From a virus: a stretch of DNA of 27,201 bases. The position numbers and the translations under genes were made by a program. The notes beneath the pieces were generated by a model that had not been told where the DNA came from, searched no databases, and saw only the letters and a program-made list of their open reading frames with translations. Shown one piece after another: positions 1,317 through 27,201 of this stretch. Numbering within the stretch: position 1 is the stretch's first letter; every line of letters starts with the position of its first letter. The stretch spans positions 1 to 27,201 of the IMG/VR virus record IMGVR_UViG_3300006737_000152, one strand, 5' to 3'.

Positions 1317-1536
1317 TGAATTAATTCGCGTTGCTGAAGAACAGATTATAACGGACACTGAAGATGACCTTTCAGCCGATAGACTTAAAAATGCCGCAGC
1401 CACTAAAAAGTTAGCGATCTTTGATGCGTTTGAAATACTAACACGCATAGACGAAGAAAGATCATTATTAGAAGGTGAGAATCAGGCGGCTAAAGCTAAA
1501 TCATTTAAAGGCTTTGCAGAAGGTAGATCAAAATGA
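1261..1536 (+). CDS. terS: Probable terminase small subunit
   Basis: The protein has 91 residues and is rich in helix-forming Ala, Glu, Lys and Leu. The call is mainly positional: it lies immediately upstream of the large terminase and overlaps it in an ATGA (1533-1536), typical of translationally coupled terS-terL pairs. The ending FKGFAEGRSK resembles the basic tail of small terminases I recall from Bacteroidota and marine phages. A clear helix-turn-helix is not obvious; the segment LKNAAATKKLAIFDAFEIL could be part of a helical bundle. The start at 1261 lies 56 bases inside the GroES-like gene in another frame, and no later ATG gives a better start. In headful or cos packaging TerS recognises the concatemer and delivers TerL. 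It could instead be a short unknown late protein. Confidence 0.55.
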   Translation: MNVKDTKKNIIRAGQKAVNELIRVAEEQIITDTEDDLSADRLKNAAATKKLAIFDAFEILTRIDEERSLLEGENQAAKAKSFKGFAEGRSK

Positions 1537-3746
1537 ATTATACTCAGACATTATTTGAGGTTCTGCCTAATTATATAAGCAAGAAAGTTCTTAATAAAAA
1601 GAATAGGTATAAGCAATGGAAATACGGCTATGACAAAGAAAGCGATGTTGTAGTTATAAGTAAAACCGGAGAAATTGGAGATGTGTATAGCATACAAAAT
1701 CTTAAAATAGCTTTGCCAAAAATATCTAATCCATATAAATTTAAAAAAAATACGTGGAATCAAATAGATTATCCTAAAGAACTTGAAAAAATAAAAAGTG
1801 TATTTGAGTGGAATCAAATGCCTGAATACTTTAAAGAAAAATATTATGACTACATTGACGAAGAGTTTAAGCGCCGTGACCAGGGGTTTTCGTTCGTTAA
1901 CAAAGGCAGCTCTACTTATATTACTGGCACTCATTACATGTACTTGCAGTGGAGTAAGATTGACGTTGGGGCCCCTGAATTTAGAGAAGCAAACAGATTA
2001 TTCTTTATATTTTGGGAAGCATGCAAGGCCGATTCACGGTGTTATGGAATGTGCTATCTTAAAAACAGACGCTCTGGGTTTTCATTCATGGCATCGGGAG
2101 AAACTGTTAACATGGCAACAATATCCTCCGATTCAAGGTTTGGTATACTGTCCAAATCTGGGGCTGATGCCAAGAAAATGTTCACCGACAAGGTCGTGCC
2201 AATATCCGTTAACTACCCGTTCTTTTTCAAACCAATACAAGACGGTATGGACAGACCAAAAACCGAACTGGCGTATAGGGTACCCGCATCAAAGCTTACC
2301 AGAAGAAAACTTGATCAAGGCGAGAAGCCGGAGGAGCTCGAAGGGCTTGATACAACAATCGACTGGAAGAACACGGGTGATAACTCCTACGACGGCGAGA
2401 AGCTCAAGCTCCTTGTACACGACGAATCGGGTAAATGGGAACGGCCGGACAACATCCTCAACAACTGGCGGGTTACAAAAACGACACTTAGATTAGGTTC
2501 CAGAATCGTAGGAAAGTGTATGATGGGCTCGACATCAAATGCATTAGATAAAGGTGGAGCAAATTTTAAAAAGTTATACGAGAATTCAAACGTTACTGAA
2601 CGAAACCGCAATGGACAGACTAGCTCGGGACTATATTCTTTGTTTATACCTATGGAGTGGAATTACGAAGGATTCATTGATACTTATGGAAACCCTGTCT
2701 TTGATACACCAAAAGAACCAGCGGAAGGGCCATACGGCGAACTAATTGACCAAGGGGTAATTGAGCATTGGCAGAATGAAGTTGATGGTCTTAAAAATGA
2801 TCAGGACAGCTTAAACGAATATTACAGGCAATTTCCAAGAACGGAACAGCATGCTTTCAGAGATGAAGCAAAAGAATCTTTATTTAATCTAACTAAAATT
2901 TATGAACAGATAGATTATAATGAAGAAGTTCAAAACGGAATGCAAGTCACACAAGGTAGTTTTCAATGGGAAGGCGGGGAACAAGATAGCAATGTAATAT
3001 TTGCGCCAAACACAAATGGAAGATTTAAAGTATCTTGGGTGCCTCCTAAAAATTTACAAAACCGTGTGATAGTAAAGAATGGCGTCAAATACCCAGGTAA
3101 CGAGCACATTGGTGCTTTTGGGTGTGACTCATACGATATATCAGGTACAGTTGATAAGAGGGGATCAAAAGGTTCTTTGCATGGGCTAACTAAGTTTAGC
3201 ATGGAAGATGCGCCTCCTAATATGTTTTTTTTAGAATATATTGCGCGGCCCCAAACAGCTGAAATATTTTTCGAAGATGTACTTATGGCTCTAGCATTCT
3301 ATGGAATGCCCTTATTGTGCGAAAATAATAAACCTCGATTATTATACTATTTAAAAAGAAGAGGTTATAGAGGGTTTTCAATGAACCGACCAGATAAGCT
3401 TTGGAATAAGCTTTCTGTTACAGAAAAAGATATAGGCGGTATACCAAACTCGTCTGAAGACATTAAGCAAGCGCACGCTGCAGCAATAGAAAGTTATATA
3501 GAAAATTATGTTGGTCAAGTTACTGAAGGTGTATATGGCGATACGTATTTTCAAAAAACCCTAGAGGACTGGGCTGGATTTAATATAAATAACAGAACAA
3601 AATTTGACGCAACAATTAGTTCTGGATTAGCTATTATGGCTTGTAATAAAAACAGGTATAGACCATCTGCTGAAAAAGTAATTAAGTCTGTTCCGCTGAG
3701 TTTTAAAAAATATAACAATAAAGGATATAGTTCAAAAATAATATAA
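1533..3746 (+). CDS. terL: Terminase large subunit (packaging ATPase and nuclease)
   Basis: This is the motor that translocates phage DNA into the prohead and cuts the concatemer. At 737 residues it is longer than the common 450-600, with an extended N-terminal region of about 130 residues. The ATPase half shows a deviant Walker A at residues 177-184 (KNRRSGFS), where the lysine lies upstream, as in 'KARQ.G.S' terminases. Walker B is LLVHDE with D297 and E298, and the coupling motif is GST in CMMGSTSNA. The RNase H-like nuclease half shows the expected acidic set: D532 in GCDSYDISG, E597 in LLCENNKP and D692 in KFDATISSG. The gene follows the probable small subunit with an ATGA overlap and precedes the portal gene by three bases. 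Codons between about 2161 and 2480 are clearly GC-richer than the rest (see finding). Confidence 0.93.
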   Translation: MNYTQTLFEVLPNYISKKVLNKKNRYKQWKYGYDKESDVVVISKTGEIGDVYSIQNLKIALPKISNPYKFKKNTWNQIDYPKELEKIKSVFEWNQMPEYFKEKYYDYIDEEFKRRDQGFSFVNKGSSTYITGTHYMYLQWSKIDVGAPEFREANRLFFIFWEACKADSRCYGMCYLKNRRSGFSFMASGETVNMATISSDSRFGILSKSGADAKKMFTDKVVPISVNYPFFFKPIQDGMDRPKTELAYRVPASKLTRRKLDQGEKPEELEGLDTTIDWKNTGDNSYDGEKLKLLVHDESGKWERPDNILNNWRVTKTTLRLGSRIVGKCMMGSTSNALDKGGANFKKLYENSNVTERNRNGQTSSGLYSLFIPMEWNYEGFIDTYGNPVFDTPKEPAEGPYGELIDQGVIEHWQNEVDGLKNDQDSLNEYYRQFPRTEQHAFRDEAKESLFNLTKIYEQIDYNEEVQNGMQVTQGSFQWEGGEQDSNVIFAPNTNGRFKVSWVPPKNLQNRVIVKNGVKYPGNEHIGAFGCDSYDISGTVDKRGSKGSLHGLTKFSMEDAPPNMFFLEYIARPQTAEIFFEDVLMALAFYGMPLLCENNKPRLLYYLKRRGYRGFSMNRPDKLWNKLSVTEKDIGGIPNSSEDIKQAHAAAIESYIENYVGQVTEGVYGDTYFQKTLEDWAGFNINNRTKFDATISSGLAIMACNKNRYRPSAEKVIKSVPLSFKKYNNKGYSSKII

Positions 3747-3749
3747 TAA

Positions 3750-6155
3750 ATGGTTAATACTAATTACAACAGCTCGTTTCCCGATCAGGTGGTACCTAAT
3801 GAGGAAAAGCAGTCATTGGATTATGGTTTGCAGGTAGCGAGAGCTATTGAAAACGAGTGGTTTAGAAATAACCGTGGAGGAGATCGTTTCACTTCTAATT
3901 TTCAGGAGTACCATAGGAGAAGATTATATGCCAGGGGCGAGCAGTCTATTCAAAAGTATAAAGATGAATTATCTATTAATGGTGATTTATCCTACTTAAA
4001 TTTAGATTGGAAGCCTATACCTATTATTCCTAAATTTGTAGATATCGTGGTTAATGGCATGTCGCAGCGCCATTATGAAATAAAAGCGAGCGCTCAAGAT
4101 CCTGTTGCTCAAAAGAAAAAAACAGATTACGCTAGAGGTATAATGTTGGATATGAAAAAATATCAGCAGCTTATGGCGTTAACAGAGCAAACAGGTAGAA
4201 ATTTCTTTTCTACAGACAACCCACAATCATTGCCAAAAAACAAAGAAGAGTTTGAACTGCATATGCAGATGGATTATAAAGAGTCTGTTGAATTGGCAAC
4301 TGAGCAGCTTATAAATAACTGTTTAGATAAAAATAAATACGACGAAACTCGTAAAAGAATTATACAAGACTTAGTTGTATGCGGTATAGGAGCAGCTAAA
4401 ACAGAATATAATAAATCAAATGGATTACAAGTAAAATATGTTGACCCTGCAAGCTTAGTATATTCTTATACTGAAGATCCTAACTTTGATGATTTATATT
4501 ATATAGGTGAAGTGAAGCAAATTTCATTAAGCGAAATAGCTAAGTTATTTCCATACCTTTCCCCACAAGATATTCAAGAAATACAAAAGTACCCTGGTAA
4601 TAATGATTATATAAGAAATTATTACGGGCAAAACGATAACAATACAATAAGTGTTATGTTTTTTGAATACAAAACTTTTGAAAAGCAAGTATTCAAAATT
4701 AAAAGAACGGAGTTTGGTTTAGAAAAAGCATTAGAAAAAACTGATATATTTTCGCCTCCTCCAAGTGATAATTTTGAAAGAGTAGAAAGAGTTATTGAAG
4801 TCTTATACACGGGAGCTAAAGTACTTGGCCATGAAAAAATGCTTTCGTGGAAGCTAGCTGAAAACATGACAAGACCATACGCTGATTCTCCTAAAATTGA
4901 AATGAATTATAGTATAGTAGCGCCTAGAATGTATAAAGGCAAGATTGAATCGTTAGTTAGTCGTGTCACGGGCTTTGCAGATATGATTCAGCTTACACAT
5001 TTAAAATTACAGCAAGTTATGTCTCGTATGGTACCAGATGGTGTTTATGTAGATGTTGACGGCTTAGCTGAGGTTGATTTGGGTAATGGCACTAATTATA
5101 ATCCGGCAGAGGCATTGAACATGTATTTCCAAACCGGTAGCATAGTGGGACGATCATTTACACAAGATGGTGATATGAACCCCGGCAAGGTGCCTATTCA
5201 AGAGTTACAAACATCATCTGGACAAGGAAAAATTGCTTCGCTTATTAGCACGTATCAATATTATTTACAAATGATAAGAGACGTAACGGGATTAAATGAA
5301 GCACGCGACGGGAGCACGCCGGATAAGAATGCGCTGGTAGGGCTACAAAAGCTTGCAGCTGCAAATAGTAACACTGCTACAAGGCATATATTACAATCAG
5401 CTTCTTTTATTACGCTTAGATTGTGCGAAAACATTTCTTTAAAAGCTAAAGATATATTTGAATTTGCTTTAACAGAAGAAACATTGTTAGAAAGTATAAA
5501 TCAATTTAATGTTGAAACACTAAAAGAAGTTTCGGATTTACATTTGCATGATTTTGGCATATATTTAGAACTTGAACCTGACGAAGAAGAAAAAGCTCGT
5601 CTTCAACAAAATATACAGGCTTCATTACAAGCCGGTTCAATATACTTAGATGACGTAATAGAAATACAAAACATTAAAAATATTGATTTAGCCAATAAGT
5701 ATTTAAGACTTAAAAGGCGTCAAAAGCAAGAGCAAGATCAACAAGCAAGTCAGGCTAATATACAAGCACAAGCACAAGCGAATGCTGAAACAGCAGAAAA
5801 GGCAGCCTTAGCTGAAATGCAAAAACAACAGGCTCTTACAGAAACTAAACTGCAACTAGAACAAGGTAAGTCTCAGTTTGAAATACAAAAGCTTGAAAGA
5901 GAAGCAGAAATTAAAATGCGCTTAATGGAACTTGAGTTCCAATTTAACAAACAGCTAGCCGAAGCGCAAGCTGAAGCTTTAAAAAATAAAGACGCTTATA
6001 AAGAAGATAGAAAAGATGAGCGTACTAAAATACAAGCTACGCAGCAATCAGAATTGATTGACCAGCGAAAAAACGAAACACTGCCAAAAAACTTTGAATC
6101 CGCAGGATTTGATGTGTTGGGCGGATTTGACTTAGGTCAGTTCGATCCTAAGTAA
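3750..6155 (+). CDS. Portal protein with long Gln-rich coiled-coil tail
   Basis: Portal proteins form a dodecameric ring at one capsid vertex, through which DNA enters and leaves and to which TerL and the tail dock. The 801-residue length fits the large P22-like/crAss-like portals. Position between terL and the scaffold-capsid pair is diagnostic. Residues about 20-600 contain helical and strand segments typical of portals: WKPIPIIPKFVDIVVNGMSQR near residue 90, the KYVDPASLVYSYTEDPNFDD clip/stem region near 230, and the RDVTGLNEARDGSTPDKNA stretch near 510-530, which is common in portals. From about residue 611 the chain becomes a Gln-, Ala- and Glu-rich coiled coil up to about 764, probably a barrel-like extension into the capsid. 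A short ending, FDVLGGFDLGQFDPK, follows. The start ATG lacks a Shine-Dalgarno and is preceded by AATATAATAA. Confidence 0.9.
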   Translation: MVNTNYNSSFPDQVVPNEEKQSLDYGLQVARAIENEWFRNNRGGDRFTSNFQEYHRRRLYARGEQSIQKYKDELSINGDLSYLNLDWKPIPIIPKFVDIVVNGMSQRHYEIKASAQDPVAQKKKTDYARGIMLDMKKYQQLMALTEQTGRNFFSTDNPQSLPKNKEEFELHMQMDYKESVELATEQLINNCLDKNKYDETRKRIIQDLVVCGIGAAKTEYNKSNGLQVKYVDPASLVYSYTEDPNFDDLYYIGEVKQISLSEIAKLFPYLSPQDIQEIQKYPGNNDYIRNYYGQNDNNTISVMFFEYKTFEKQVFKIKRTEFGLEKALEKTDIFSPPPSDNFERVERVIEVLYTGAKVLGHEKMLSWKLAENMTRPYADSPKIEMNYSIVAPRMYKGKIESLVSRVTGFADMIQLTHLKLQQVMSRMVPDGVYVDVDGLAEVDLGNGTNYNPAEALNMYFQTGSIVGRSFTQDGDMNPGKVPIQELQTSSGQGKIASLISTYQYYLQMIRDVTGLNEARDGSTPDKNALVGLQKLAAANSNTATRHILQSASFITLRLCENISLKAKDIFEFALTEETLLESINQFNVETLKEVSDLHLHDFGIYLELEPDEEEKARLQQNIQASLQAGSIYLDDVIEIQNIKNIDLANKYLRLKRRQKQEQDQQASQANIQAQAQANAETAEKAALAEMQKQQALTETKLQLEQGKSQFEIQKLEREAEIKMRLMELEFQFNKQLAEAQAEALKNKDAYKEDRKDERTKIQATQQSELIDQRKNETLPKNFESAGFDVLGGFDLGQFDPK

Positions 6156-14700: not shown

Positions 14701-15305
14701 AGGGAAGAAATTTAGCTTGGTCAGTGTCAGCAGTTGATAGCAACGGTAATACAGCGAGTAATTATTTTAGCGCAAGCGCAATACCGGGTCAAGATATTTC
14801 GTCATGCACAGTTGCCAACACTTCACCCGGAACTATTCCTGTAGGTACATATACAATTACAGTAACCCTAACTGATGCGGGGTCTTCTACAGACTCTACT
14901 GTGCTTACAGTATTTTTAGGAGCTGTTCCTACATCAATTGTAGAAGCAGTGTACAGGTTTATTTTCCAGGGCGGCGGGGGAGCTGGATTTAATGATCAAA
15001 CAGGTGTTTTAATTGAAATAACCGGTAGAACTAATGCTTCTGAAAACGGCTTTTATATTATTTTTGGAAGTTGGTTAACACTACAAAATTCTGCTGACTC
15101 TTCAAATAATATAGAAATTGATAGGACAAATGCTAAATTTATAGGTACAAATGGTTGTGCTGGCGGCCCGTGGTATTATGATAATGACAAAGCAGATATT
15201 CCAACGTTGATAAAAAACTGCGCAAGTGTAACTCCAAATAGCGTATCGGGTCCTATTTCTGAAACAACAATTACTACAACAGGGTTTACATTCTCAATAG
15301 TATAA
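11703..15305 (+). CDS. Tail hub / stabilisation ('muzzle'-like) protein, first part, with Ig/cadherin-like domain
   Basis: The protein has 1200 residues. The N-terminus (residues 1-50) reads NKDLDARLLPSGEYRNALNV followed by SKSEGSDVGALENILGNKW, a hallmark I associate with phage packaged-DNA stabilisation or tail-hub proteins (P22 gp10-like; 'muzzle' in crAss-like phages), with a beta-propeller-like fold. YGINLLEDLLFFTDNRNQPR (about 127-146) supports this. Later sections, such as KFVKFSYRFKYDDGEYSTLA (about 308) and YQVGIVLADKFGRQSSVILS (about 518), are beta-rich. Residues about 955-1075 resemble an Ig/cadherin-like module (LAWSVSAVDSNGNTAS, then GTYTITVTLTDAGSSTDSTV). The final 110 residues contain FQGGGGAGFNDQTGVLIEIT and two to three Cys. 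The protein probably closes the tail tip and may contact the host surface. The next gene carries what looks like the second half of the same machine. Confidence 0.72.
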   Translation: MPEVKNAFIKSKMNKDLDARLLPSGEYRNALNVQISKSEGSDVGALENILGNKWLKAFANETSNLYCIGHFVDESREAIYLFFTDNTETAYNSSSNNYIFSFQPSATENIKTLLVEGSFLNFSTKSPIYGINLLEDLLFFTDNRNQPRKINIDDAAGGTYYTTEDQISVAKVAPVYSMLVYKENSNSSATVPYETTMKDVVSLFLPHGGTADVNASVTGSNTFSIGNLNINKYPNEPRVGATIAKVNTNGTITDLNVTVLSYSSPTITLQVGEAVDLSNNTQVVFDFNPYFDNTYAGDSKFLENKFVKFSYRFKYDDGEYSTLAPFTQSCFIPKQDGYFLNNAIDQGDQIESFESTIVSFMENKVNSIDFIIPLPGAANQINSKFLIEEIDIIYKESDGTALYAIESISVPNEIASAGSNEYYTYTYINKKPYKTLPEADLIRVYDKTPVKALAQEVSGNRIIYGNFQDKHTPPDFMDYNVGIASKFNFNATGTNFNVEDKTSIVEYPNSTLKTNRTYQVGIVLADKFGRQSSVILSNSTTKVTFAGNTFEGETIYSPYIDEQIDQSEWPGNSIRLLINSLPASGADSNTMYPGIYNGDINDPAYNPLGWYSYKIVVKQTEQEYYNIYTAGALKGNANINTSLIDGEESHISLINDNINKLPRDLSEVGPQDKTFRSSVRLYGRVNNKDTDTSTYPNGSYAYSNTGNTQFYPGAFSFTAKNIQDIFDVYNYNTTTSGDIPDTEKINLFYEATRNPLVAAISTSQTSSLQFGQQSPITGANFTTIKNLAVFETEPVVSLLDIYWETSTSGLLSDLQTAIDNSGGNATATFSSFNDSVFNETLNNGDDILAGDFSINDSFGSAIPNSDITSFTVVHVRTTEQTPQDVTNNFELYQSTAGDYSTNNIRTKNNFQVNNYYGSDDGKRIFNFRFSVTTDDGTGNPSTTTIINKSASLLNVPPVIYKNDGTTLQPPTENLGALPRATTTLKQLKGKNGATSNSDFEGRNLAWSVSAVDSNGNTASNYFSASAIPGQDISSCTVANTSPGTIPVGTYTITVTLTDAGSSTDSTVLTVFLGAVPTSIVEAVYRFIFQGGGGAGFNDQTGVLIEITGRTNASENGFYIIFGSWLTLQNSADSSNNIEIDRTNAKFIGTNGCAGGPWYYDNDKADIPTLIKNCASVTPNSVSGPISETTITTTGFTFSIV

Positions 15306-15339
15306 AATTGTAATAAAATAGCAAAACAAGTGATTATAT

Positions 15340-16899
15340 ATGGGAGCAATATTAGAAGTTAAATATTTTAACAGCTTTCTTTTAAAAAAGATAAATAACA
15401 CCAGTAATGGGCCTGATAGACCAGATTATAATGGATCTAGAGGGATTCCGTCAGATATTGGTGGGTATCCTGTTTTTGCTAGTTTAGGAACAAGTAAATG
15501 GGCTATAGAGGAATCAAGAATACGCGGTGGATATAATAATGCAAGCGAGGGGTATGGCGTAAAAGCGTACATAGTCGAAGAAGAAACTAATGGTATTACA
15601 AGATCTAGTTCTCTTATATATTCAGGTATATTTAATTCAAGAACCGGTATTAATAAAACAAATGTATTTTCCGTTGGGGAGGATATAACAAAAAGTTTAG
15701 ACCCATCTAAAGGAAGCATACAAAAATTATATGCTGAAGATACAAACTTAATTATATTTCAAGAAAATAAAGTTAATAGAGCTCTTATTGATAAAGACGC
15801 AATATATACAGCTGAAGGTGGCGGTGCTATAACTTCCTCCAATTTAGTTATTGGGCAAATTGTACCTTATTCTGGAGAATATGGAATAAGTAAAAACCCA
15901 GAAAGCTTTGCTGTTTATGGATATAGAAAATATTTTGCAGATAAAAGAAGAAATGCAGTATTAAGGCTTTCAAGAGATGGAATAGAAGAAATATCTAGAT
16001 ATGGCATGCGCGATTTTTTTAGAGATGAATTTGTTAGAATTGACGAATTATCGCAAGGAAAAATTTACGGTGCTTTTGATATCCATAGCAAACAATATGT
16101 AATTTCTACACAGGCTGATTTATCTTTACCAAATGAGCCTTATAATACACTTGCATTTGATGAAGACGTAAAAGGTTGGACTAGCTTTTTTAGTTATAAA
16201 CCTCAAAGAATGTTTAGCTTAAGAAAATCATTTTATTCAATATCACAGCGTTTTTTACCAAGCCCTACTAATTTAGTCGGCAATACAAAAGCTAATATAT
16301 TTCAGCATTACCATACTTTAGATTTAAATCTCAATAGTATTAATAGAGCTAATTTTTATGGCAAAGACCACCAGTCTAGCATAACCTTTGTTTTTAACCC
16401 TAAGGTAAGCATGTCAAAAAACTTTCAAACAATTAATTATGAGGGTAGTAACGGCTGGAAAATATCATTAATTGAATCTGATGAAACTGGTTCAGACGAA
16501 ATAAATCAAAGCTATTCTTTATTTTATGATCATGGAGAAGAAATAAAAAGTTATTATAATGGTGAATATGTAATAAACCCTCAAGACGGAAACCCTGTAA
16601 AAAGGCAAGATTACTATAGTGTGTTTAACACGTATGAACCTCCGCATTCAAGATACCATGCTGGCTTTAATAGAAAAGAAAATAAATATGCAGCCCCAAT
16701 AATAAGTAATAACTTAGCTAGACCTGGGGAGGTATTAAGCGGAAGAAGCGTGTCTGGTATTAAAGGTTATTTTACAACAATAAAAATATCAACCGATACT
16801 GTAATTACTTCTGACGGCAGGGCAACTGGAGGAACAGATATAGGTGGTTTTAAAGAGCTATTTGCGGTATCATCTAATTATGTAGAATCATCATATTAA
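15340..16899 (+). CDS. Tail hub / stabilisation protein, second part
   Basis: The protein has 519 residues and starts MGAILEVKYFNSFLLKK. Recognisable segments are KWAIEESRIRGGYNN (about 51-65), KLYAEDTNLIIFQENKVNRA (about 128-147), GQIVPYSGEYGISKNPESFA (about 170-189) and YGYRKYFADKRRNAVLRLSR (about 191-210), followed by DGIEEISRYGMRDFFRDEF. This last block is the pattern I associate with crAss-like and marine podovirus tail stabilisation proteins, where it belongs to a beta-propeller-like hub. No signal peptide or membrane segment is seen. It lies 34 bases after the 1200-residue hub gene, and the two are likely stoichiometric partners. The first half plus this one would approximate a single large hub protein, so the split looks like a family arrangement rather than a frameshift: there is a clean stop, a spacer and a new A-rich leader. 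Confidence 0.72.
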   Translation: MGAILEVKYFNSFLLKKINNTSNGPDRPDYNGSRGIPSDIGGYPVFASLGTSKWAIEESRIRGGYNNASEGYGVKAYIVEEETNGITRSSSLIYSGIFNSRTGINKTNVFSVGEDITKSLDPSKGSIQKLYAEDTNLIIFQENKVNRALIDKDAIYTAEGGGAITSSNLVIGQIVPYSGEYGISKNPESFAVYGYRKYFADKRRNAVLRLSRDGIEEISRYGMRDFFRDEFVRIDELSQGKIYGAFDIHSKQYVISTQADLSLPNEPYNTLAFDEDVKGWTSFFSYKPQRMFSLRKSFYSISQRFLPSPTNLVGNTKANIFQHYHTLDLNLNSINRANFYGKDHQSSITFVFNPKVSMSKNFQTINYEGSNGWKISLIESDETGSDEINQSYSLFYDHGEEIKSYYNGEYVINPQDGNPVKRQDYYSVFNTYEPPHSRYHAGFNRKENKYAAPIISNNLARPGEVLSGRSVSGIKGYFTTIKISTDTVITSDGRATGGTDIGGFKELFAVSSNYVESSY

Positions 16900-16903
16900 A
16901 ATT

Positions 16904-17680
16904 ATGGAACAAATATTAGAACTTTTTTTCGGTAATCCAGACTATAATTTAACATACGGAGTCGCTCCCCTTGTGGGAGTGGCTGTTAGTGCTGGTGTTA
17001 GTTTATTAGGCGGTATATTTGGATCTGCCAGCGCTAAAAAACGGGAGCAAGCCGCAAGAAAAGAAAGACTTAAATTAGAGCGTGAGCTTAAAAAAGCTGA
17101 AAACAATAGGCAGGCAATTGTTAACCCTTACGAGGGCGTTAAAGAAATACCTGTTTCTATGAGCAATCCATTCGAAAATATTGGTGTTGCTACAAATGCA
17201 GCTACTATGCAAGCCGAAGAAGCCGATATAGCTCTTGCTAATACATTGGACACAATACGATCAACTGGCGCAAGTGCTGGTGGAGCTACTGCGCTTGCTC
17301 AAGCGGCTCTTAGAAGTAAAAAGGGTATTGCGGCAAGCATTGAACAACAAGAAGCTAAAAACGAGCAATTAAAAGCTGAAGGTGAATTTAAGAAAGAACA
17401 GTTTGAACAACAAGCAAGACTTTCTGAAAAACAAAGAGTGCAACAGGGCGAGGCTGCTGGTAAAGAATTTGTGTTCCAACAACAAGAAAACAGAGAAGTT
17501 TCACAATTAAACAGATTATCTGCACAAATTACAGGTCAACAACAGCAAGAGGTAGCCGCGCAACAAGCAAGAGCCTCTGCTATTTCAGGAGCTATATCCG
17601 GAATTGGAAGTGCAATAGGCGCTGGGCTAACAGGCGGTAAAAACGCAGGAGGTATATTTAATCCAAATAATTTAGGATAA
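16904..17680 (+). CDS. Putative ejection (internal virion) protein with glycine zipper and coiled coil
   Basis: The protein has 258 residues. Residues about 20-43 (GVAPLVGVAVSAGVSLLGGI) are a hydrophobic glycine-rich helix able to insert in membrane. Residues about 44-75 are strongly basic and charged (KKREQAARKERLKLERELKK). The middle, GASAGGATALAQAALRSKKG (about 121-140), is followed by a long Gln/Glu/Lys coiled coil to about 220. The end, SGAISGIGSAIGAGLTGG, is a second glycine-zipper-like helix. This composition and its place right after the tail hub match podovirus internal proteins such as T7 gp14, which leave the capsid first and help form a channel through the host envelope. Function is inferred from architecture. 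The following gene starts one base after this stop. Confidence 0.68.
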   Translation: MEQILELFFGNPDYNLTYGVAPLVGVAVSAGVSLLGGIFGSASAKKREQAARKERLKLERELKKAENNRQAIVNPYEGVKEIPVSMSNPFENIGVATNAATMQAEEADIALANTLDTIRSTGASAGGATALAQAALRSKKGIAASIEQQEAKNEQLKAEGEFKKEQFEQQARLSEKQRVQQGEAAGKEFVFQQQENREVSQLNRLSAQITGQQQQEVAAQQARASAISGAISGIGSAIGAGLTGGKNAGGIFNPNNLG

Positions 17681-17681
17681 T

Positions 17682-19136
17682 ATGGGAGCATACGAAAATC
17701 CACAAACTGTCATAGACGACAAGAGTGCACTTATACTTGCCAAAGGGTTTGAGTCTTTTGCTACAAGCCTTAACGAGGCTACTTTAGCTCGTGCTAAAAA
17801 AGAAAAAGAACTTGCAGACCAAACGCTTCTTGATGATGCTACATATGCTAAAGCAGAAGCTTCTGGAGTTAGGAAAGCGGATAAAGCTGTAAACAATTAT
17901 CTTGAAAAGTTTGGTGATCCAGGCGACGCAATGGTTAAAATGGTACGCGGTAATTTAGCTCGTCAATATGAACTTGAGGAACTGAATAAGGTTTTTACGC
18001 CTAGAGACGAAGAGCAAAAAGCAGAGCAAAAAGCTAATATTAAAGAAGAGCAGCAATTAAGAACTTTAAACGATAACTTCTTAGGAGCTATACAAGACGT
18101 AGACATTACTATGGCTGAAGTCGGAGAAGCGCAAGTTCAAAGTGGTGAAGGGCTATTAATGGGTGGACCCGGCACTGTTGATAAAAGCAAAAATAGTGGT
18201 AATGATGTATATTTTAAAGCGGCGTCTATACTTAACGGTCAAACTCCTGCAAAAAAACCTTTTGAACAAACTACAAATTCGCAAGGCGATGTAGTATTAA
18301 AATTTTACCCTGAAGGCGAAGAAGCATTTGAATGGAATGTTACACAAAACCCGTCAGCTTATAAAGTTCCTGAAACAACTAAAAAAATTGGCACTGCTTT
18401 GACAGGTGGTGAAAATCCCATATATGTTAAAACAAACACTGGATATCAAATGTCTGATAAATATCTTCAATATGAAGAAAACGATCAAGGGCAAAAACAA
18501 GTTAAAAAAACATATAGATATGTTGTTCAACAAGATGGAAGCGTAAGAAGAGAAGTTGCCGACTCTTATGATGTAGAAGGTTTAAGAACGGCTACTGCTG
18601 CACAAGTACAGGCATCTATACAGGGTATGAGTGATCGTGATATGCAATCACAGTTTACTAATCAACTCTTAGTTGATACATCGGGAGAGGCTATTACTTA
18701 CATGCACGAAGGTAAAGAAAAAACTGTTACAATTACCCCTGAAACATTAAATACCGAAGACGGCGCTCCTTTATCTGACGAACAAAAACAAATGTTCTTA
18801 GCGGCTCAAACATTTGTAACAAACGCAAACTTCCCTGTTTCACTAAATTATAAAACTGATTCAACAGGACCAAAATTAAATACTGCTGAAAAGAATATAA
18901 TAGATGGGTTAAATAAACTTGAAACTGAAGGCGGGACAATAAAAATAGGTCCAAATATATATGCTGAAAAAGAAGGTGACAAATATGTTATAGTACAAAG
19001 AGGTACGCAACTAGCTAACCGAGTGGAAATAGATAGCACTAAAAGCATAAAAGACATTTTAAATTTTGTCACTGGAATAGATAGACCCGCTGTTGAAAAA
19101 AAATTATCACCTAAGCCCAAAAAAAATTTACCATAA
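17682..19136 (+). CDS. Putative internal virion / ejection protein 2
   Basis: The protein has 484 residues and no recognised family. The first 70 residues are helical and Ala-rich (ILAKGFESFATSLNEATLAR, then RAKKEKELADQTLLDDATYA), and residues about 100-130 are charged (DEEQKAEQKANIKEEQQLRT). From about 185 onwards the sequence alternates polar strands (DVVLKFYPEGEEAFEWNVTQ; GENPIYVKTNTGYQMSDKYL) and has AAQVQASIQGMSDRDMQSQF near 305-324. The C-terminus is basic (KLSPKPKKNLP). It has no membrane segment or signal peptide. Genes in this slot, between a glycine-zipper ejection protein and a giant terminal ORF, usually encode a second ejected protein (compare T7 gp15). That comparison is positional only. 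Confidence 0.55.
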   Translation: MGAYENPQTVIDDKSALILAKGFESFATSLNEATLARAKKEKELADQTLLDDATYAKAEASGVRKADKAVNNYLEKFGDPGDAMVKMVRGNLARQYELEELNKVFTPRDEEQKAEQKANIKEEQQLRTLNDNFLGAIQDVDITMAEVGEAQVQSGEGLLMGGPGTVDKSKNSGNDVYFKAASILNGQTPAKKPFEQTTNSQGDVVLKFYPEGEEAFEWNVTQNPSAYKVPETTKKIGTALTGGENPIYVKTNTGYQMSDKYLQYEENDQGQKQVKKTYRYVVQQDGSVRREVADSYDVEGLRTATAAQVQASIQGMSDRDMQSQFTNQLLVDTSGEAITYMHEGKEKTVTITPETLNTEDGAPLSDEQKQMFLAAQTFVTNANFPVSLNYKTDSTGPKLNTAEKNIIDGLNKLETEGGTIKIGPNIYAEKEGDKYVIVQRGTQLANRVEIDSTKSIKDILNFVTGIDRPAVEKKLSPKPKKNLP

Positions 19137-19150
19137 TAAAATAAAATAAT

Positions 19151-22100
19151 ATGTCAAAATATATTTTTGAAGGATCTGAATACACTCTGGAAGAAATTCA
19201 AGAGGCAGCCGCTGCTAAAAATATGTCTGTAGAAAAATATTTAGCTGCTAATCCTGAAATACAAATTATTGAGGATATTGCTACTGAACCAGATGTTCAA
19301 AATCAAGAAGAATTTGAAGACCCTTTTTTGCAGAGTGTAAAAAAGACAATAGGTCCTGTGGAGGAGGCTGCGGCTGTAGGACCGGAAGTAACGGCGGAGC
19401 AGCCAGATACGGATTTAGTTTCGGAAGATATTTCTTTGGATTCACCAGATCCTAGATATATTGAGTTTAATATAAACGGCGAAAAAACATACAGCTCATA
19501 TGAAGACGTTGAAAAAGAATATGGCAACGTTGAAGACTATGTAAGAAAATTTAGGGGTAAAGCAAAAATTGTAACCCCACCCAAACAGCTAGAGGAAGTT
19601 GTTGTAGAGGGCGATGCGGAAAAAACAGTAGATCCAGGCGAATATTTAACAGAGGTTATAGAAGCTGATAAAAATTTCTTTTCAAGAGATTATGATCAAA
19701 TTCAAGCGGACTTAGAAGTGCAGTTTCCAGATGTTGAGTTTTCGTCTACAGTAAGAACAGGGTCTACCGCGGTAGCAGGAAGACGTGTAATAAAAGCTAA
19801 AAAAGACGGAAAAGAAATTAAACTTTTTACCGATATTACAACGCCTGGGCTCAAAAATACATTTTATACTGATAACATAAAAAGCTTAAAAAAGTTTTTA
19901 TCAGAAACATACAAGCCAGAAGAAGTAAAACGTACAAAAGAGCGTATAGAAATTGCAGAGACAGAAGCTTTAAATATTTTGCAGCCATTAGCAGATGAGG
20001 CAAAACAATCTACAGATTATCAGAATTTTGATAATGAAGATTTATTTAAGCCTTATACTAAAAAAGTTGAAGCTACATCTTTTGTAGGTGGTGTCCCAAC
20101 AGGTGGTGGGTACGAAACAGAAGTTAGGCCATACGAAGCGCGTTTAAAAAATGCCTATAAGAAACTAAAAAATATTTCGCCTGAAAAAACAGAAGAACAA
20201 TTAAAAGCTGAAGCTGAAGCGCAGGTTAGAGCAGAGTTAAAAAACGAATATGTTTTTAATTACCAAAGCGAACAAATACAAGATAAGATTTCTGACATTG
20301 GAAAAAGAGGCATAAGGACTAACTTACAAGCTTTTTTAAATACTGGATATTTAAGTGCTAATTTTAAAGCACAAACTTCTTTAGATAGAATTGCATTAGA
20401 AAAAAAAGCAGCAAGTATTTTTTCTAAAATAATAGAAGGTGAAGATGTGACGCAGCAAGAAACCGATAGGTTTGTTAATGTATTAAAAAAATTAGATATT
20501 GATGTTAACACGGGCTTAACGGAAAAAGTTATTTTACCCAGTGGTTCCGTAGTTAGTCAAGCTTTTGTAGATGGAGCTTTAAAATTTCAAGCAAAAGCTC
20601 AAGCAGATGAAATACTTTATTTACAATCTCAAGAGGAAATAAACAAAGCTGTAGGCGACATTAGCAGTATTGAGGCTGCTTTAGATGCTACTCGAAGAGA
20701 TTATGATCTTAGTGATAAAGCCATGACGTCGGTGGGCGTCGGAGTTGGGGACATTGGTGTTGGGATAACATATTTAGGAGGTAAAGTTTTATCTTTGCCT
20801 GCATATTTAGTAGGTGGTTATAAGCCAATGAATGAGGCTTTAGATTCATTTGCTGTTAAATATAATGAGGTAACAAATGACATTAGAGAAAGCTATGTTA
20901 GAGACGTAGCATTTGACGATGCATTTAAAGAAGGAAACTTTGGTAAGTTTGCATTGCAAGAAGTGTCTAATCAGTTACCTATTATTGCTTCAATCATGGC
21001 ATCAGGCGGAGCAGCAGCTTATGTTATAGGCTCTTCTTCTGCGGGTAAGCAGATGATGGACATGCAAACTGAAATTGCAAACGGCACTGCTGAATATACC
21101 AATTCAGAAGTATGGCTAAAAAGTTTAGGTTTTGGTGTTGCTGAAGCAGCATTTGCGCAGTTAACAACAATACCAATATTAAACAGAGCTAAAAGTACAC
21201 TTTTAAGAGGTAATCCAAAAGCTAATTCAATAATTGATAATAGTACTGCCGCATATGCAAAATCAGGCTATAAAGGGGTTATTTCTGATACACTATTAGA
21301 GTCTATTGGTGAGGTTGCCACAGTTGGTACACAAAATCTTTTATTGGGTAATCCGTTTATAGAAGGCATGGACCACGCCGGGTTTTCAGGCGCAGGGTTT
21401 GGTCTTTTGTTTTCAGGCATACCATTTATGCGCGGATTGCACTTGTCTAGATACTCTGATTATTCAAAGCTTAAAAAAGTACGCGAAATACAAGCAGAAA
21501 TAAATGGTCTTAGCTTAGAGTACAATAGCGCTAAAAATGAAGGCGAAAGAGCTAGAATAGAGGAACAAATTAAAAAATTAAGTGTTGATGCTGCAAATGA
21601 AATACAATTGCAGGAAAAAAATATTAATGAGCATATTACAGCAAGAGCTGGGCAATATGTAATTGATATTACAAATAGGCAAGCAAAAATACAATTAGAA
21701 GCAAAAGCTATACTAGCGGATAACTCGCTTACGGAATCACAAAAAGCAGCAAGACTACAGCAGTTACAAGCTGAAACAGATTATTTGCAGTCCTCAAAAG
21801 AGTCAGCTTTAAAAGATAGTGCTAAAGTAAATAAGTTTACTGAGTTTTTACTTTTGAAAGGTTCTAATGAAGCACAATATAATCAATACTTAAATGATGC
21901 ACAAGCGTTATTATCAGCTGATAAAACCACTGCTTCAGAAGAAAAAATACAATCAAAAGCTTTAGAGTTATATTTTCAAGATCAGATTGTAGCTGAAAAT
22001 AGTAAAGCTAATAAAAGGCTAGGGGCTAATTTTAAATCATTTAACACTGTTAAAGAAGCAACTACTTTTATAGAAAATAGCAAAACCATTTCTGACCCTG

Positions 22101-25100
22101 ATAAGAAAACGTTAATTCAAAACTTAAAAGATGGTGACGACGGTGCGGCATACGTAAGTCCAGAAGGCAAGAAAACAACATATGCAGTTGTAGAAAACCA
22201 AGTTAGAAACCAACGTAAGTTTATTAGAACGCATGAGGTTGGCCACCAAGTATTTTGGGATATTTTAGGTACAGACCCTGCTGCTTTTGATGAGATCGGA
22301 AGACAGCTATTAGAAACAACTAAGGTAATAAGTCCTTCAATACATAAGCAACTTTTAAAAGAAGAAGGTGATGGCGTTGAGATTGTTGCAAGATTTTTAG
22401 AGCGTGTGGCCGCGGGCGATGTAAACTTTAGAAATAACAATGCAAAAAAAGCAATGTCCGGTTTGTTCGGAACAATAGTTCAAAAGAAATTTGGTAATGA
22501 GTACGATTTTAATTTTGCAGGCGAGACTGATATGTTTAACTTTGTTGTTGGTATTGGCAAAAAGATTGCAGATGGCAGCCTAACAACAGCAGACATTAAA
22601 AAAGCGAAAGGCAGTGAGCTTGTAAAACGAATAAAAGATAAAGCTATTGTATTGCCAACTAAACAAGAGCAAACAAGACTTAAGCGTGCAGCCTCAACTA
22701 AAAAAGAATTAAGTGATGTGTTTCCAGAGGATATGGATAGCACTGAAGCTTACTTTACGGTAACAAATACAAATGCGCTTGATGGTAGTATAATCAACGC
22801 AGCAAAAGCTGCAGGTATACCTACAGATAGACTAGATCTTGATGCTATTAAAGAAAATATTGGCATTAGGTTAATTAAAAATTATGACCCTGATAAGAAT
22901 ACTGTATTTGGTTATTTATTAGGCTCAAAAGGTATTGTAAAATTAGCGGTTCTTGATCAAGCTAAAGCGTTTAAAGAAACAGTTACTGACACTGCAAAAT
23001 CGCTCGATGTTCAGGCTGGAGAGCTAGGCTCTGTTGCTGAAATAGCAGCTGAAGAAGTATCTATAGAAGAAAGGGAAGCTAGGGAAGCGGAAGAAGAAGC
23101 TGAGGTTGCTTCTACGTTTAATTTAACAACATCTAGTGCGCTTTTACCAACTACAGTAAGTAAAGCTAAAGACAAAGTCTTAGGTATAGTTAGAACGCTT
23201 AAAAACAAATTAGGTGCAGCTGTATCTAAGAATGTAAATACTGTGCCAGTTGTTAAAGAAATCATACAATCCTCAGCGAGGTCTATTGACATTGATATTA
23301 AAAAACAAATTGGCGGTAAAGCAGACTTAAAATTACGTAAGTGGACTATTGATAACAAAGCAGATATAATTAACAACACTTCTGCTACATGGCTAATGGG
23401 TAAAGACAGTGGTACAGCTGTTAAAGGTGGCATACCAATTGCTATTGAAAAATCTGTTGGCGGAAAATATACTGGTAAAACTATTGAAATAAATGTTGGA
23501 GGTAAAATTGTTAAAGTACAAGAGTTTAAGCCTAATTTTGTACCTTATCCTGAATGGGTGGGGCAAAAAATCGATCGTGAAAAGACTGTTGAAAGAGGGC
23601 AAACATCAGGTAATGAAATTGTAAGAAAAGTTAAGCCGGTAAAAATAAGCGACAACGCCTTTGCAGACTTTGTTACAACTCAAGATGGTACACCTATACG
23701 CGGTAGAAAAGAATCATTATCACAAGAGCTAGCGGGTAGATTAGGTGGGCAAATATTCAGAGAAGAAATGCTAGATGCAGAATCTGATATTTCAAAAGCA
23801 TTTGAACAAAATCAAGATTTACGTGGTGCTGTGCTTTCAGATAATTTTAGAAATGAAATTATAGAACAAACAGAGCGTGGTTTAATTGCAAGGAGCGCCG
23901 GAATGGCTGTTGGGTCTGCAATTGAAGCAATGACTAGAGCTACAAACACCGAAAGAGCTGAGGCATTACAAGAAATTAAAGGTCTCCTTTCCGCAAGAGA
24001 ATATGAAATATTATACCATAATGAAATTGGTCCATTTTTAGATGTAATGGAAGAAATTGACGAAGGCGGTTGGTATGTTGCAGAGCAAAAAGCAATTGAT
24101 GTATTTAATAAATTGCAAAAAATAGTTGACAATTTAAAAATAACACAAACAGAACCTGTAGGTGATCCATCTTCTCCAGATGTAATTTTTGAATATGAAG
24201 GCGTGCCTATAAATTGGGAAATTAAAAAAGGTAAAAACGCTAGGTTAAGTCAAATGTACATTTCTAATTGGAGCACTGACTCTCCTGGTATTTCCAGAAA
24301 TGTTAAACAAGAATATAAAGATAAAATATTAGAAGCTGAAAAAAATAACAAAGGTTTAAAAAAGTATATAGATCAGCTAACAAATGGTAAGTACTCTGAT
24401 AAAATAACATTTGATGGTAAAAACTGGATTATGCCTAAAAATGTATATTATGCTTTACAGAGGCTTGGCTTTCAAAAAAATGCAACAACTAAATTAACAT
24501 TGCCGACTAATGTTGTTTCTCAACTATATAAAGAAAAAAATACGCACTATATAGGTTTTACAGATATAGGTAATTTTTCTTTAGATTCAAATCCTATGGG
24601 GCTTAACTTGCCACCATTATTAGGTGAAGTTGATATTAATGTTAAATTTAAACCCAACTTTAGAAGCGATGACACTGTTAGTGTTTCAAGAGTAGCATAT
24701 CCTTCGCTTACAACTCAAACAGCTTCTGACTTAGCAAAAACTTCAACAAGCAGTGTGTATAGCACGAACTCAATGAAGAATTTATTTGAGTCTATAAACA
24801 AAGGAACTATAGCGGCTTCAAAAGGTAAACCTGTTTCTGATGTACTTAAAAAACAATACGAAGAGCAACAGAATTATTTAATATCACTTACAAAAGGTGA
24901 ATTGGATAAAAAAGATACATTTGACATGCGCCAAGTTATAGCAAGACAGATGTTTCCTAAGCAGGCTATGAGTGATGCAGTTATGGCCGGCACAACCGAT
25001 TCATTTAGTGCGCTTACAGATGCTCAAAAGAAAAAGGTATTAGCTAAGGTACCAGGTATGATAGCTAGAAGCAAAAAGAGAAAAGTAAACCTTAACTCGG

Positions 25101-27201
25101 AGTTTAATAAAATGATAGAACGTGCTTCAGGCATTCCAGCGCGTAAAAAGTTATCAGGAGTCGTAGCGCGTAGAGTAGGTGCTAACAAAGGCATGTTCAA
25201 ATTATTCTTGCCGCCCTCTGCTGAAGATTTAAGAGGCTTATATTATTCGCTTCTTGGTAGCGGTAGACAAGGCGAGGCTGATAAAGAATTTTTTAAAGAT
25301 CACGTAGTTGCGCCATACACTAGAGGTATAGCTGCTATGGAAAAAGCTAAGCAAGCTATAATGAATGACTTTAAAGCTTTGCGTAAAATATTTAGACCAG
25401 ATTTAAAAGCGGCAGGTATTAAAAGCACGAATCAAAAAGTACCTGGAATGGATATAAGTGTTGATCAAGCTGTACGTATATATTTATGGACACAATCTGA
25501 TAAAACAATTCCTGAGCTTACAGAGGCAGATCAAAAGAAAGCGGTTGAGTACATTTATAAAACACCTACACTGCAAGCATATGCAAACGGGCTGTTAGCG
25601 ATTAGTAAGCAAGATAGCTGGTCAGATCCTACTGAATATTGGGATGCCCAAACAACTTTGTCTGATCTTACTGATATTGCGCTAAACGTAAATAGAAAGT
25701 TTTATTTAAAAGAGTTTATTGAAAATACTGAACAAATATTTTCAAATGATAACTTGAATAAATTAGAAGCAACACTTGGCAAAAGCGCAAGACAATCTTT
25801 TGAAGATATTCTTTATAGAATGCGAACAGGCAGTAATAGACCTTCAGGCGGGGATTCTATTACAAATAAATGGAATAACTGGGTTAATAATTCTGTTGGA
25901 GCTATTATGTTCTTTAACAGACGATCCGCTACCTTACAGCTATTGTCTACTGTAAACTTTTTAAATTACACAGATAACCACCCGATTAGAGCGGCGGCTG
26001 CATTTGCAAACTTTCCGCAATATATAAAAGATTGGGCAACTATATTTAATTCACCAAAGCTTAAAGAACGTAGAGGCGGATTAAAAAGTGATGTGCAAGA
26101 AGCAGAGATTGCAGCGGCAGCTAAGAATGCTAAGAACAAGCCTTTAGCAATGATTAGCTATTTACTTAAAATAGGTTTTACACCTACTAAAATAGCAGAT
26201 AGCTTTGCAATCGCAACAGGGGGAGCAGCATTCTACAGAAACAGAATTAATACGTATAAGAAAAAAGGTTTTGATGATGCTGAGGCGGAAGCAAAAGCAT
26301 GGGAAGATTTTTCAAATATATCAGATGAAACGCAGCAGTCTGGTGATCCTATGCTCATTTCAAAGCAGCAAGCAGGCACTATGGGAAGACTTATATTAGC
26401 TTTCCAAAATACACCAATGCAGATCACTCGTTTTCAAAAAAGAGATTTTCAAGATATAATTAATAGAAGACGTATTAAAGGTAAGAACCAATTTCAAAGT
26501 GATATGACGTACTTAAGTCGTATTACGTATTATACAGCTATTCAAAACTTAATCTTCTCTACATTACAAAACGGATTGTTTACATTACTACCAGGTTTTG
26601 ATGACGAAGACGAAGAAAACTTAACTGCTGAAGAGCTTGAAAAAATCGAAAGAAAAGAAGAGCAAAAGGTTCAAAATGTGTTGAACAGTATGCTTGATAC
26701 AACGCTCAGAGGATCGGGGCTATACGGTGCAGTTGCATCTACGATTAAAAATGTGCTTATTGAATATATGCGTCAGCAAGAAAAAGATCCGTTCCAAAAA
26801 GACAATGCTAAAATATTATTGCAGGCAATAAACATATCACCTCCAATTGGGTCTAAAGCTCGTAAGTTTTATAATTCATTAGAAGCTATGGATTATGAAA
26901 GAGATGTACTTGAAGCAAGAGGCTTTGGTGTAATGATAGACGGTAAATTTCAATTAAGCCCTGCATATCAAGTATTAGGTAACTTAGCGTCAGCTACAAC
27001 AAATCTGCCACTTGACAGAGCTGTAGCAGAAATTGATGCAGTTACAGAAGCGCTTGATTCTCGTAATTCAGATATGCAAAGAATAGCAATGGCCCTCGGG
27101 TGGAAATCATGGGAAGTGGGTGCTGAGATTGAAGAGCATGAGCTAATCAATACTACCGCTAAAGAAACAAGAGCTTTAGAAGCCACTCGAAAAAGAAAAG
27201 A
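19151..27201 (+). CDS. Giant internal virion (polyvalent-like) protein with HExxH and PD-(D/E)xK motifs, 3'-truncated by window
   Basis: The frame starts at an ATG after AATAAAATAAAATAAT and stays open to the right edge, giving at least 2683 residues. The N-terminal 20 residues (FEGSEYTLEEIQEAAAAKNM) read like a small peptide-docking helix. Hydrophobic, glycine-rich patches occur at about 525-560, 610-635 and 739-760 and may insert in membrane. An HExxH motif (HEVGH, residues 1028-1032) and a PD-(D/E)xK motif (P1676-D1677 with E1690-I-K1692) lie in separate sections. Other segments include FVPYPEWVGQKIDREKT near 1463 and GTPIRGRKESLSQELAGR near 1515. The C-terminal section includes LPPSAEDLRGLYYSLLGSG (about 2018) and WNNWVNNSVGAIMFFNRRSA (about 2241), patterns I recall from giant proteins of uncultured marine phages. 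By position, after the ejection genes, it is probably packaged and injected, as T7 gp16 and N4 virion RNA polymerase are. Confidence 0.72.
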   Translation, partial: MSKYIFEGSEYTLEEIQEAAAAKNMSVEKYLAANPEIQIIEDIATEPDVQNQEEFEDPFLQSVKKTIGPVEEAAAVGPEVTAEQPDTDLVSEDISLDSPDPRYIEFNINGEKTYSSYEDVEKEYGNVEDYVRKFRGKAKIVTPPKQLEEVVVEGDAEKTVDPGEYLTEVIEADKNFFSRDYDQIQADLEVQFPDVEFSSTVRTGSTAVAGRRVIKAKKDGKEIKLFTDITTPGLKNTFYTDNIKSLKKFLSETYKPEEVKRTKERIEIAETEALNILQPLADEAKQSTDYQNFDNEDLFKPYTKKVEATSFVGGVPTGGGYETEVRPYEARLKNAYKKLKNISPEKTEEQLKAEAEAQVRAELKNEYVFNYQSEQIQDKISDIGKRGIRTNLQAFLNTGYLSANFKAQTSLDRIALEKKAASIFSKIIEGEDVTQQETDRFVNVLKKLDIDVNTGLTEKVILPSGSVVSQAFVDGALKFQAKAQADEILYLQSQEEINKAVGDISSIEAALDATRRDYDLSDKAMTSVGVGVGDIGVGITYLGGKVLSLPAYLVGGYKPMNEALDSFAVKYNEVTNDIRESYVRDVAFDDAFKEGNFGKFALQEVSNQLPIIASIMASGGAAAYVIGSSSAGKQMMDMQTEIANGTAEYTNSEVWLKSLGFGVAEAAFAQLTTIPILNRAKSTLLRGNPKANSIIDNSTAAYAKSGYKGVISDTLLESIGEVATVGTQNLLLGNPFIEGMDHAGFSGAGFGLLFSGIPFMRGLHLSRYSDYSKLKKVREIQAEINGLSLEYNSAKNEGERARIEEQIKKLSVDAANEIQLQEKNINEHITARAGQYVIDITNRQAKIQLEAKAILADNSLTESQKAARLQQLQAETDYLQSSKESALKDSAKVNKFTEFLLLKGSNEAQYNQYLNDAQALLSADKTTASEEKIQSKALELYFQDQIVAENSKANKRLGANFKSFNTVKEATTFIENSKTISDPDKKTLIQNLKDGDDGAAYVSPEGKKTTYAVVENQVRNQRKFIRTHEVGHQVFWDILGTDPAAFDEIGRQLLETTKVISPSIHKQLLKEEGDGVEIVARFLERVAAGDVNFRNNNAKKAMSGLFGTIVQKKFGNEYDFNFAGETDMFNFVVGIGKKIADGSLTTADIKKAKGSELVKRIKDKAIVLPTKQEQTRLKRAASTKKELSDVFPEDMDSTEAYFTVTNTNALDGSIINAAKAAGIPTDRLDLDAIKENIGIRLIKNYDPDKNTVFGYLLGSKGIVKLAVLDQAKAFKETVTDTAKSLDVQAGELGSVAEIAAEEVSIEEREAREAEEEAEVASTFNLTTSSALLPTTVSKAKDKVLGIVRTLKNKLGAAVSKNVNTVPVVKEIIQSSARSIDIDIKKQIGGKADLKLRKWTIDNKADIINNTSATWLMGKDSGTAVKGGIPIAIEKSVGGKYTGKTIEINVGGKIVKVQEFKPNFVPYPEWVGQKIDREKTVERGQTSGNEIVRKVKPVKISDNAFADFVTTQDGTPIRGRKESLSQELAGRLGGQIFREEMLDAESDISKAFEQNQDLRGAVLSDNFRNEIIEQTERGLIARSAGMAVGSAIEAMTRATNTERAEALQEIKGLLSAREYEILYHNEIGPFLDVMEEIDEGGWYVAEQKAIDVFNKLQKIVDNLKITQTEPVGDPSSPDVIFEYEGVPINWEIKKGKNARLSQMYISNWSTDSPGISRNVKQEYKDKILEAEKNNKGLKKYIDQLTNGKYSDKITFDGKNWIMPKNVYYALQRLGFQKNATTKLTLPTNVVSQLYKEKNTHYIGFTDIGNFSLDSNPMGLNLPPLLGEVDINVKFKPNFRSDDTVSVSRVAYPSLTTQTASDLAKTSTSSVYSTNSMKNLFESINKGTIAASKGKPVSDVLKKQYEEQQNYLISLTKGELDKKDTFDMRQVIARQMFPKQAMSDAVMAGTTDSFSALTDAQKKKVLAKVPGMIARSKKRKVNLNSEFNKMIERASGIPARKKLSGVVARRVGANKGMFKLFLPPSAEDLRGLYYSLLGSGRQGEADKEFFKDHVVAPYTRGIAAMEKAKQAIMNDFKALRKIFRPDLKAAGIKSTNQKVPGMDISVDQAVRIYLWTQSDKTIPELTEADQKKAVEYIYKTPTLQAYANGLLAISKQDSWSDPTEYWDAQTTLSDLTDIALNVNRKFYLKEFIENTEQIFSNDNLNKLEATLGKSARQSFEDILYRMRTGSNRPSGGDSITNKWNNWVNNSVGAIMFFNRRSATLQLLSTVNFLNYTDNHPIRAAAAFANFPQYIKDWATIFNSPKLKERRGGLKSDVQEAEIAAAAKNAKNKPLAMISYLLKIGFTPTKIADSFAIATGGAAFYRNRINTYKKKGFDDAEAEAKAWEDFSNISDETQQSGDPMLISKQQAGTMGRLILAFQNTPMQITRFQKRDFQDIINRRRIKGKNQFQSDMTYLSRITYYTAIQNLIFSTLQNGLFTLLPGFDDEDEENLTAEELEKIERKEEQKVQNVLNSMLDTTLRGSGLYGAVASTIKNVLIEYMRQQEKDPFQKDNAKILLQAINISPPIGSKARKFYNSLEAMDYERDVLEARGFGVMIDGKFQLSPAYQVLGNLASATTNLPLDRAVAEIDAVTEALDSRNSDMQRIAMALGWKSWEVGAEIEEHELINTTAKETRALEATRKRK
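22180..22440 (+). other. HExxH zinc metalloprotease-like segment inside giant protein
   Basis: Residues about 1011-1097 of the giant ORF. RKFIRTHEVGHQVFWDILG contains HEVGH at 1028-1032, preceded by a beta-like stretch (YAVVENQVRNQRKFI), as in zincin active-site helices. About 45 residues downstream, VEIVARFLERVAAG has E1077 and E1084, one of which could be a third zinc ligand as in gluzincins. If active, it could cleave peptidoglycan cross-links or envelope proteins, self-process the giant protein, or inactivate host defences. The short motif alone does not prove activity. Confidence 0.5.
24146..24330 (+). other. PD-(D/E)xK nuclease-like segment inside giant protein
   Basis: Residues about 1666-1726 of the giant ORF. 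SPDVIFEYEGVPINWEIKKG gives P1676-D1677, a 12-residue beta-hairpin, then E1690-I-K1692, the canonical spacing of PD-(D/E)xK cores. The conserved basic/Gln helix that often follows is plausible in GKNARLSQM (Q1701). A preceding helix, EIGPFLDVMEEIDEGG at about 1629-1645, could supply the first acidic residue of such folds. Restriction-endonuclease-like domains cut DNA with Mg2+. Confidence 0.6.

Follow-up and report, generated by a model that had tools for sequence, protein, structure and literature searches.

A probable PD-(D/E)xK nuclease domain as an exchangeable cassette of a giant virion-type phage protein

Polyvalent phage proteins, for which delivery together with the genome has been proposed, have the zincin peptidase as a hub domain, and ParB-like domains were the sole DNases found in the main survey of these proteins (Iyer et al. 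2017; PMC5512222). Virion-associated nucleases of the restriction endonuclease (REase) fold are also already known, for instance gp4 of phage T4 (PMC7824862). Here we analyse a stretch of 27,201 nucleotides (the window), corresponding to positions 1 to 27,201 of the IMG/VR virus record IMGVR_UViG_3300006737_000152, in which a very long open reading frame (ORF) of a marine phage encodes a virion-type protein, hereafter the giant. We consider it probable that this giant is a polyvalent virion protein carrying, as an exchangeable cargo cassette, an intact-looking nuclease domain of the PD-(D/E)xK type, that is, of REase fold. The domain, its invariant predicted catalytic residues and its predicted fold were computed here, as were its kinship with standalone phage proteins, the exchange of the cassette and the virion type of its carrier.

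Conservation and predicted fold of the nuclease domain

A sequence-only reading of the window had seen in P1676, D1677, E1690, I1691 and K1692 of the giant a full REase-fold signature, flanked by an acidic helix upstream and a KxxxARLSQ helix downstream. Frame, numbering and residues are all correct (codons within 24176-24226). The spacing alone is no better than chance: when the same protein was shuffled 500 times, 192 of the products had the pattern E-x28-34-D-x10-14-E[VIL]K, and we rejected it as evidence in its own right. The case therefore had to rest on homologues and fold, and both of these do back the signature.

The module is present in six further giants (L002, L003, L053, L085, L092 and L094). 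Two of them, L002 and L003, are direct matches to the window; the others come from relatives of the structural-block protein P0005, of which a scan of IMG/VR returned at least 488, with 80 retrieved. When the six are aligned with the window (alignment A3, including four distant giants at 25-30% identity), E1645, D1677, E1690, K1692 and K1693 are invariant. A larger alignment (A5) takes in 39 sequences whose identity to the window is 14-97%, and has eight invariant columns only: E1645, D1677, E1690, K1692, Y1793, K1796, I1801 and G1807. Four of these eight are the catalytic set expected of a PD-(D/E)xK enzyme, comprising the D...(D/E)xK residues and the acidic residue of the first helix. The proposed conservation of D1677, E1690 and K1692 is thus borne out across all 39 relatives, and so is the acidic upstream helix, E1645 lying in a predicted helix. 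The proline of the PD fares differently, P1676 being replaced by I, V and other residues in relatives. The KxxxARLSQ stretch is indeed conserved (A1697 is invariant in giants and Q1701 about 95% so) but is predicted to form a loop and a short strand, not a helix. It is solely through exact conservation down to 14-20% identity that the signature stands far beyond chance.

AlphaFold, run on A5, produced a model with a predicted local distance difference test (pLDDT) score of 87.2 and a predicted template modelling (pTM) score of 0.78. Its elements (helix 9-23, strands 30-32, 46-50 and 53-60, helix 88-99; window residue = model or A5 alignment residue + 1632) place E1645 on the first helix, which is followed by a strand, a second strand starting with D1677, a third strand bearing E1690 and K1692, and then helices. 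By prediction only, this is the alpha-beta-beta-beta-alpha-beta core with catalytic residues on strands 2 and 3, the alpha/beta REase core that had been anticipated. A model built from seven sequences had reached a pLDDT of only 67 and a pTM of 0.44, and its fold search was meaningless. When the A5 model was compared with the PDB by Foldseek, PD-(D/E)xK enzymes such as I-Ssp6803I, VRR-NUC, RecU, Hjc and BspD6I took nine of the first ten places, with weak individual E-values. The Hjc cores superpose at about 2.4-3.1 Å over 47-54 columns; the PDB search matched nothing in the C-terminal half of the domain. A profile search of 177,635 PDB sequences retrieved a single chain (E 1.3); it belongs to a Holliday junction resolvase, and its alignment covers the E, the D and the E-x-K. 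Designed NTF2 proteins, which appeared among the PDB profile matches of A3 (E 0.0016), were rejected: they are artificial and vanish with a deeper alignment. With no more than the window domain as query, sequence searches of Pfam, PHROGs and the PDB yielded nothing useful, and two pattern scans of limited sensitivity found no relatives in bacterial or archaeal genomes.

Kinship with standalone phage proteins emerged from several comparisons. PHROG family 26930 (phrog_26930) matches three members of the module, with E-values up to 3.6e-5, and includes P-SSM2_192 (YP_214424.1, Q58MG2), a 225-residue standalone protein of a T4-like Prochlorococcus phage; further standalone relatives occur in P-TIM40, S-H25 and S-8S53. 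Comparing the profile of the giant family with that of the cyanophage family gave a probability of 97.8 and an E-value of 6.6e-13, and homology in both sequence and fold extends across the whole domain. A scan of IMG/VR with the cyanophage alignment confirmed at least 164 relatives besides the giants. Among the viral models of BFVD the best matches are again standalone phage proteins (an uncultured phage protein at 1.1e-10 and the cyanophage protein Q58MG2 at 6.3e-8). Longer entries there, whole proteins or pieces with 698 and 1,475 residues, match as well, which means that the module may also be carried by other large proteins.

A cassette in a virion-type giant

The nuclease is one exchangeable cassette: in sister phages the giants share their ends and have unrelated middles. 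The giants of L094 and L082 are 43% identical in their first 736 residues and 69% identical in their last 677, with no similarity in between, where the nuclease of L094 resides. At about residues 776-1597, the L082 giant (14477-21334) holds another cargo block, with a VEEHTLPA stretch, that partly matches L075. On a tree of P0005 four changes are required to account for the distribution of the module, and well-supported branches force at least three of these; most sister phages with the same giant type are devoid of the cassette. Exchangeable domains therefore lie between conserved parts, as in polyvalent proteins. The cassette has no match in the giants of Cellulophaga phages phi18:3 and phi38:1 or of Elemovirus. 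A candidate cargo module of another kind, DUF3293 (1e-12), occupies residues 1323-1392 of elemoA gp21 (P0013, L005 26564-37645); in a Pfam search of the other giants for cargo, DUF3293 in elemoA was alone above the cut-off.

The membrane-type N-terminal domain links the window to better described phages. Its profile matches phi18:3 gp123 (1.8e-20), phi38:1 gp101 (1.4e-24), elemoA gp21 (1.7e-28) and Gundel gp74 (3.4e-26) and leaves shuffled controls unmatched. The record of phi18:3 (KC821620) lists its giant, gp123, as structural, citing experimental evidence from tandem mass spectrometry (MS/MS), and window phage, phi18:3, phi13:2, phi38:1 and elemoA have a common gene order: terminase, portal, structural genes and, last, the giant. 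Given this N-terminal homology and synteny with an MS/MS-detected protein, the window giant is very probably a virion protein, in keeping with the location first assumed from gene position. An HExxH motif is found in 50 of 53 giants of at least 900 residues, where shuffling leads one to expect 0.1, and no Pfam peptidase family scores above cut-off in that region (22232-22246 in the window; L016-L095). The giant is large and multidomain like polyvalent proteins, with its zincin-type peptidase recognised at motif level only. The ParB family has no Pfam match in the giant, which does not qualify as a DdrB-like ParB DNase.

Four of the 26 giant pieces with the conserved C-terminal block have the nuclease; the two remaining nuclease-bearing giants, those of L003 and L085, stop short of the block or only just reach into it. 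Tens of residues ahead of it, a segment DDAxKNVKAVxxxLxxxDVK recurs in L019, L020, L023, L024, L028 and L031, and likewise in the giants of L041, L045, L061, L076, L091 and L093. In phi46:3 (L012, 24439-30958) the giant is apparently divided between two genes, gp120 and gp121, compared with a single gene in phi13:2. The complete L002 homologue of the window giant has 2,730 residues and is 95% identical, from which about 47 residues are missing in the window. Searching isolated phages with the giant by tblastn gave no match. Terminase identity is 63% to MW202828 (Manatee Spring phage), 45% to Flavobacterium Elemovirus (elemoA) and 37% to Cellulophaga phi38:1 and phi13:2, which places the phage near Elemovirus and the Cellulophaga podoviruses. 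At least 488 IMG/VR contigs contain relatives of P0005, and this large, mostly uncultured lineage presumably infects Bacteroidota.

Table 1. Features of the window, with positions, strand and basis of assignment
Feature	Position	Strand	Basis
Giant virion-type protein ORF	19151..27199	+	2,683 residues, no stop before window end; last gene of structural block
Membrane-type N-terminal domain, residues 520-820	20708..21610	+	Profile matches, E 1.7e-28 to 3.3e-19, to Cellulophaga, Elemovirus and Gundelvirus giants
HEVGH, zincin-type metallopeptidase motif, residues 1028-1032	22232..22246	+	HExxH motif count in giants
Helical lead-in, residues 1590-1632	23918..24046	+	Alignment A3; conserved in giants only, absent from standalone cyanophage relatives
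Predicted PD-(D/E)xK nuclease core, residues 1633-1847	24047..24691	+	39-sequence alignment A5, AlphaFold model, fold searches
E1645, acidic, first core helix	24083..24085	+	Invariant
D1677, predicted catalytic aspartate	24179..24181	+	Invariant
E1690-I1691-K1692, predicted catalytic E-x-K	24218..24226	+	E and K invariant
Conserved C-terminal block of giants, residues 1985-2660	25103..27130	+	Recognised in 26 giant pieces
Terminase large subunit	1533..3746	+	phrog_6681, 1.4e-163
Portal protein	3750..6155	+	PF16510, 1.3e-8; phrog_6547, 2.2e-146
Structural-block protein P0005	15340..16899	+	Query for collecting relatives; phage-tree marker

Possible functions of the cassette

The carrier of the nuclease is probably a polyvalent protein that is ejected. 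Packaged in the virion, it would enter the cell with the phage genome, the membrane-type domain would aid entry, the zincin protease may release the cargo, and the nuclease would make metal-dependent DNA cuts early in infection. As to substrate, we favour branched, nicked or end-containing DNA over a fixed recognition site, given that the core is similar to those of Hjc, RecU and VRR-NUC and that replication and nucleotide genes surround the standalone relatives. The DNA attacked could be that of the host or of a rival, or the replicating DNA of the phage.

Several results weigh against this explanation. None of the Foldseek matches in the PDB is individually significant (best E 0.17), and no Pfam family matches the nuclease domain (VRR_NUC has no match above its family threshold). 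The collection of isolated phages that we searched contains none with the fused module, and the protein detected by MS/MS is a distant homologue devoid of the cassette.

Two biological roles for the nuclease appear about equally likely: DNA processing, suggested by the gene neighbours of the standalone relatives, and conflict, suggested by the patchy distribution of the cassette. In the first, which is possible but short of an even chance, the enzyme would serve the phage's own DNA, resolving branched intermediates of replication or recombination or trimming ends at packaging, and its fusion to a virion protein would bring it near the portal. This agrees with the Holliday junction resolvases being the closest, though weakly matching, cores, with the primase-helicase, UvsX, MazG and cytidylyltransferase genes that adjoin the standalone genes (the first three in particular), and with T4 gp4, a virion-associated DNase of REase fold needed for packaging (PMC7824862). 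The resolvase content of four cyanophages bearing the standalone gene offers only a hint in the same direction, endonuclease VII being undetected in three of them and RusA and RuvC found in none, in a survey restricted to phages that have the gene. However, most sister phages with the same giant type do without the cassette, so that no packaging step common to them all can require it.

In the second role, equally tentative, the nuclease would be an ejected weapon or counter-defence that destroys DNA of the host, of plasmids or of rival phages, or the nucleic-acid part of a defence system, before phage expression. Conflict genes typically show exchange and a patchy distribution of this kind, and such action has been proposed for polyvalent proteins (PMC5512222). 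Set against this, no self-protection gene was recognised among the window proteins scanned, which were some of the total, and the standalone relatives belong to a block of metabolism and replication genes rather than to a defence island. A wider scenario, about which we are no more confident, regards the ejected giant as an interchangeable cargo bay in a widespread marine lineage, from which a ready-made nuclease would cut host, rival or defence-linked DNA prior to phage expression; the same enzyme family would have been taken up separately by cyanophages as a standalone gene.

Some REase-fold proteins have lost activity, and a domain embedded in a virion-type protein could in principle keep the fold for DNA binding or structure alone. 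We regard this as improbable: loss would free the catalytic positions to vary, yet none of them varies, even though identity over most of the domain has fallen below 20%. Finally, a coincidental motif in a long acidic, lysine-rich protein, as might be suspected from the shuffles, the lack of a Pfam match and the poor first seven-sequence model, is contradicted by the 39-sequence conservation, the confident fold and the match to standalone proteins, and is very improbable indeed.

Comparison with known systems

A literature search of limited range found no description of this nuclease family or of its combination with a giant. The present analysis provides a function-class call for a family that lacked annotation and whose IMG/VR relatives number at least 164 besides the giants, and ties a standalone protein of T4-like cyanophages to a virion-type module. 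If the call is right, PD-(D/E)xK cargo widens the DNase repertoire of polyvalent proteins beyond ParB-like domains, and the cassette layout, with the same ends and another middle in sisters, offers a route to the functions of ejected proteins through comparison of their cargo.

By its model, the window domain shares core topology and the order of catalytic residues with Hjc, RecU and VRR-NUC, although neither sequence nor fold scores are significant. The phrog_26930 proteins are like it in the E, the D, the E-x-K and a downstream Y..K....I.....G pattern; unlike the window module, they are standalone proteins of 225-290 residues in a replication and nucleotide block, unfused to a virion protein. 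T4 gp4 also combines REase fold and virion association but is a small separate protein of the TnsA-like subfamily that acts at packaging (PMC7824862). Phi18:3 gp123, phi38:1 gp101 and Elemovirus gp21 have the gene position and membrane-type N-terminal domain of the window giant, whereas the Cellulophaga and Elemovirus giants bear other cargo, such as the DUF3293 of elemoA. With polyvalent phage proteins, the giant has in common its very large size, multiple domains, zincin-type peptidase motif and variable parts; it differs from those surveyed in that its DNase-like cargo is a predicted PD-(D/E)xK domain.
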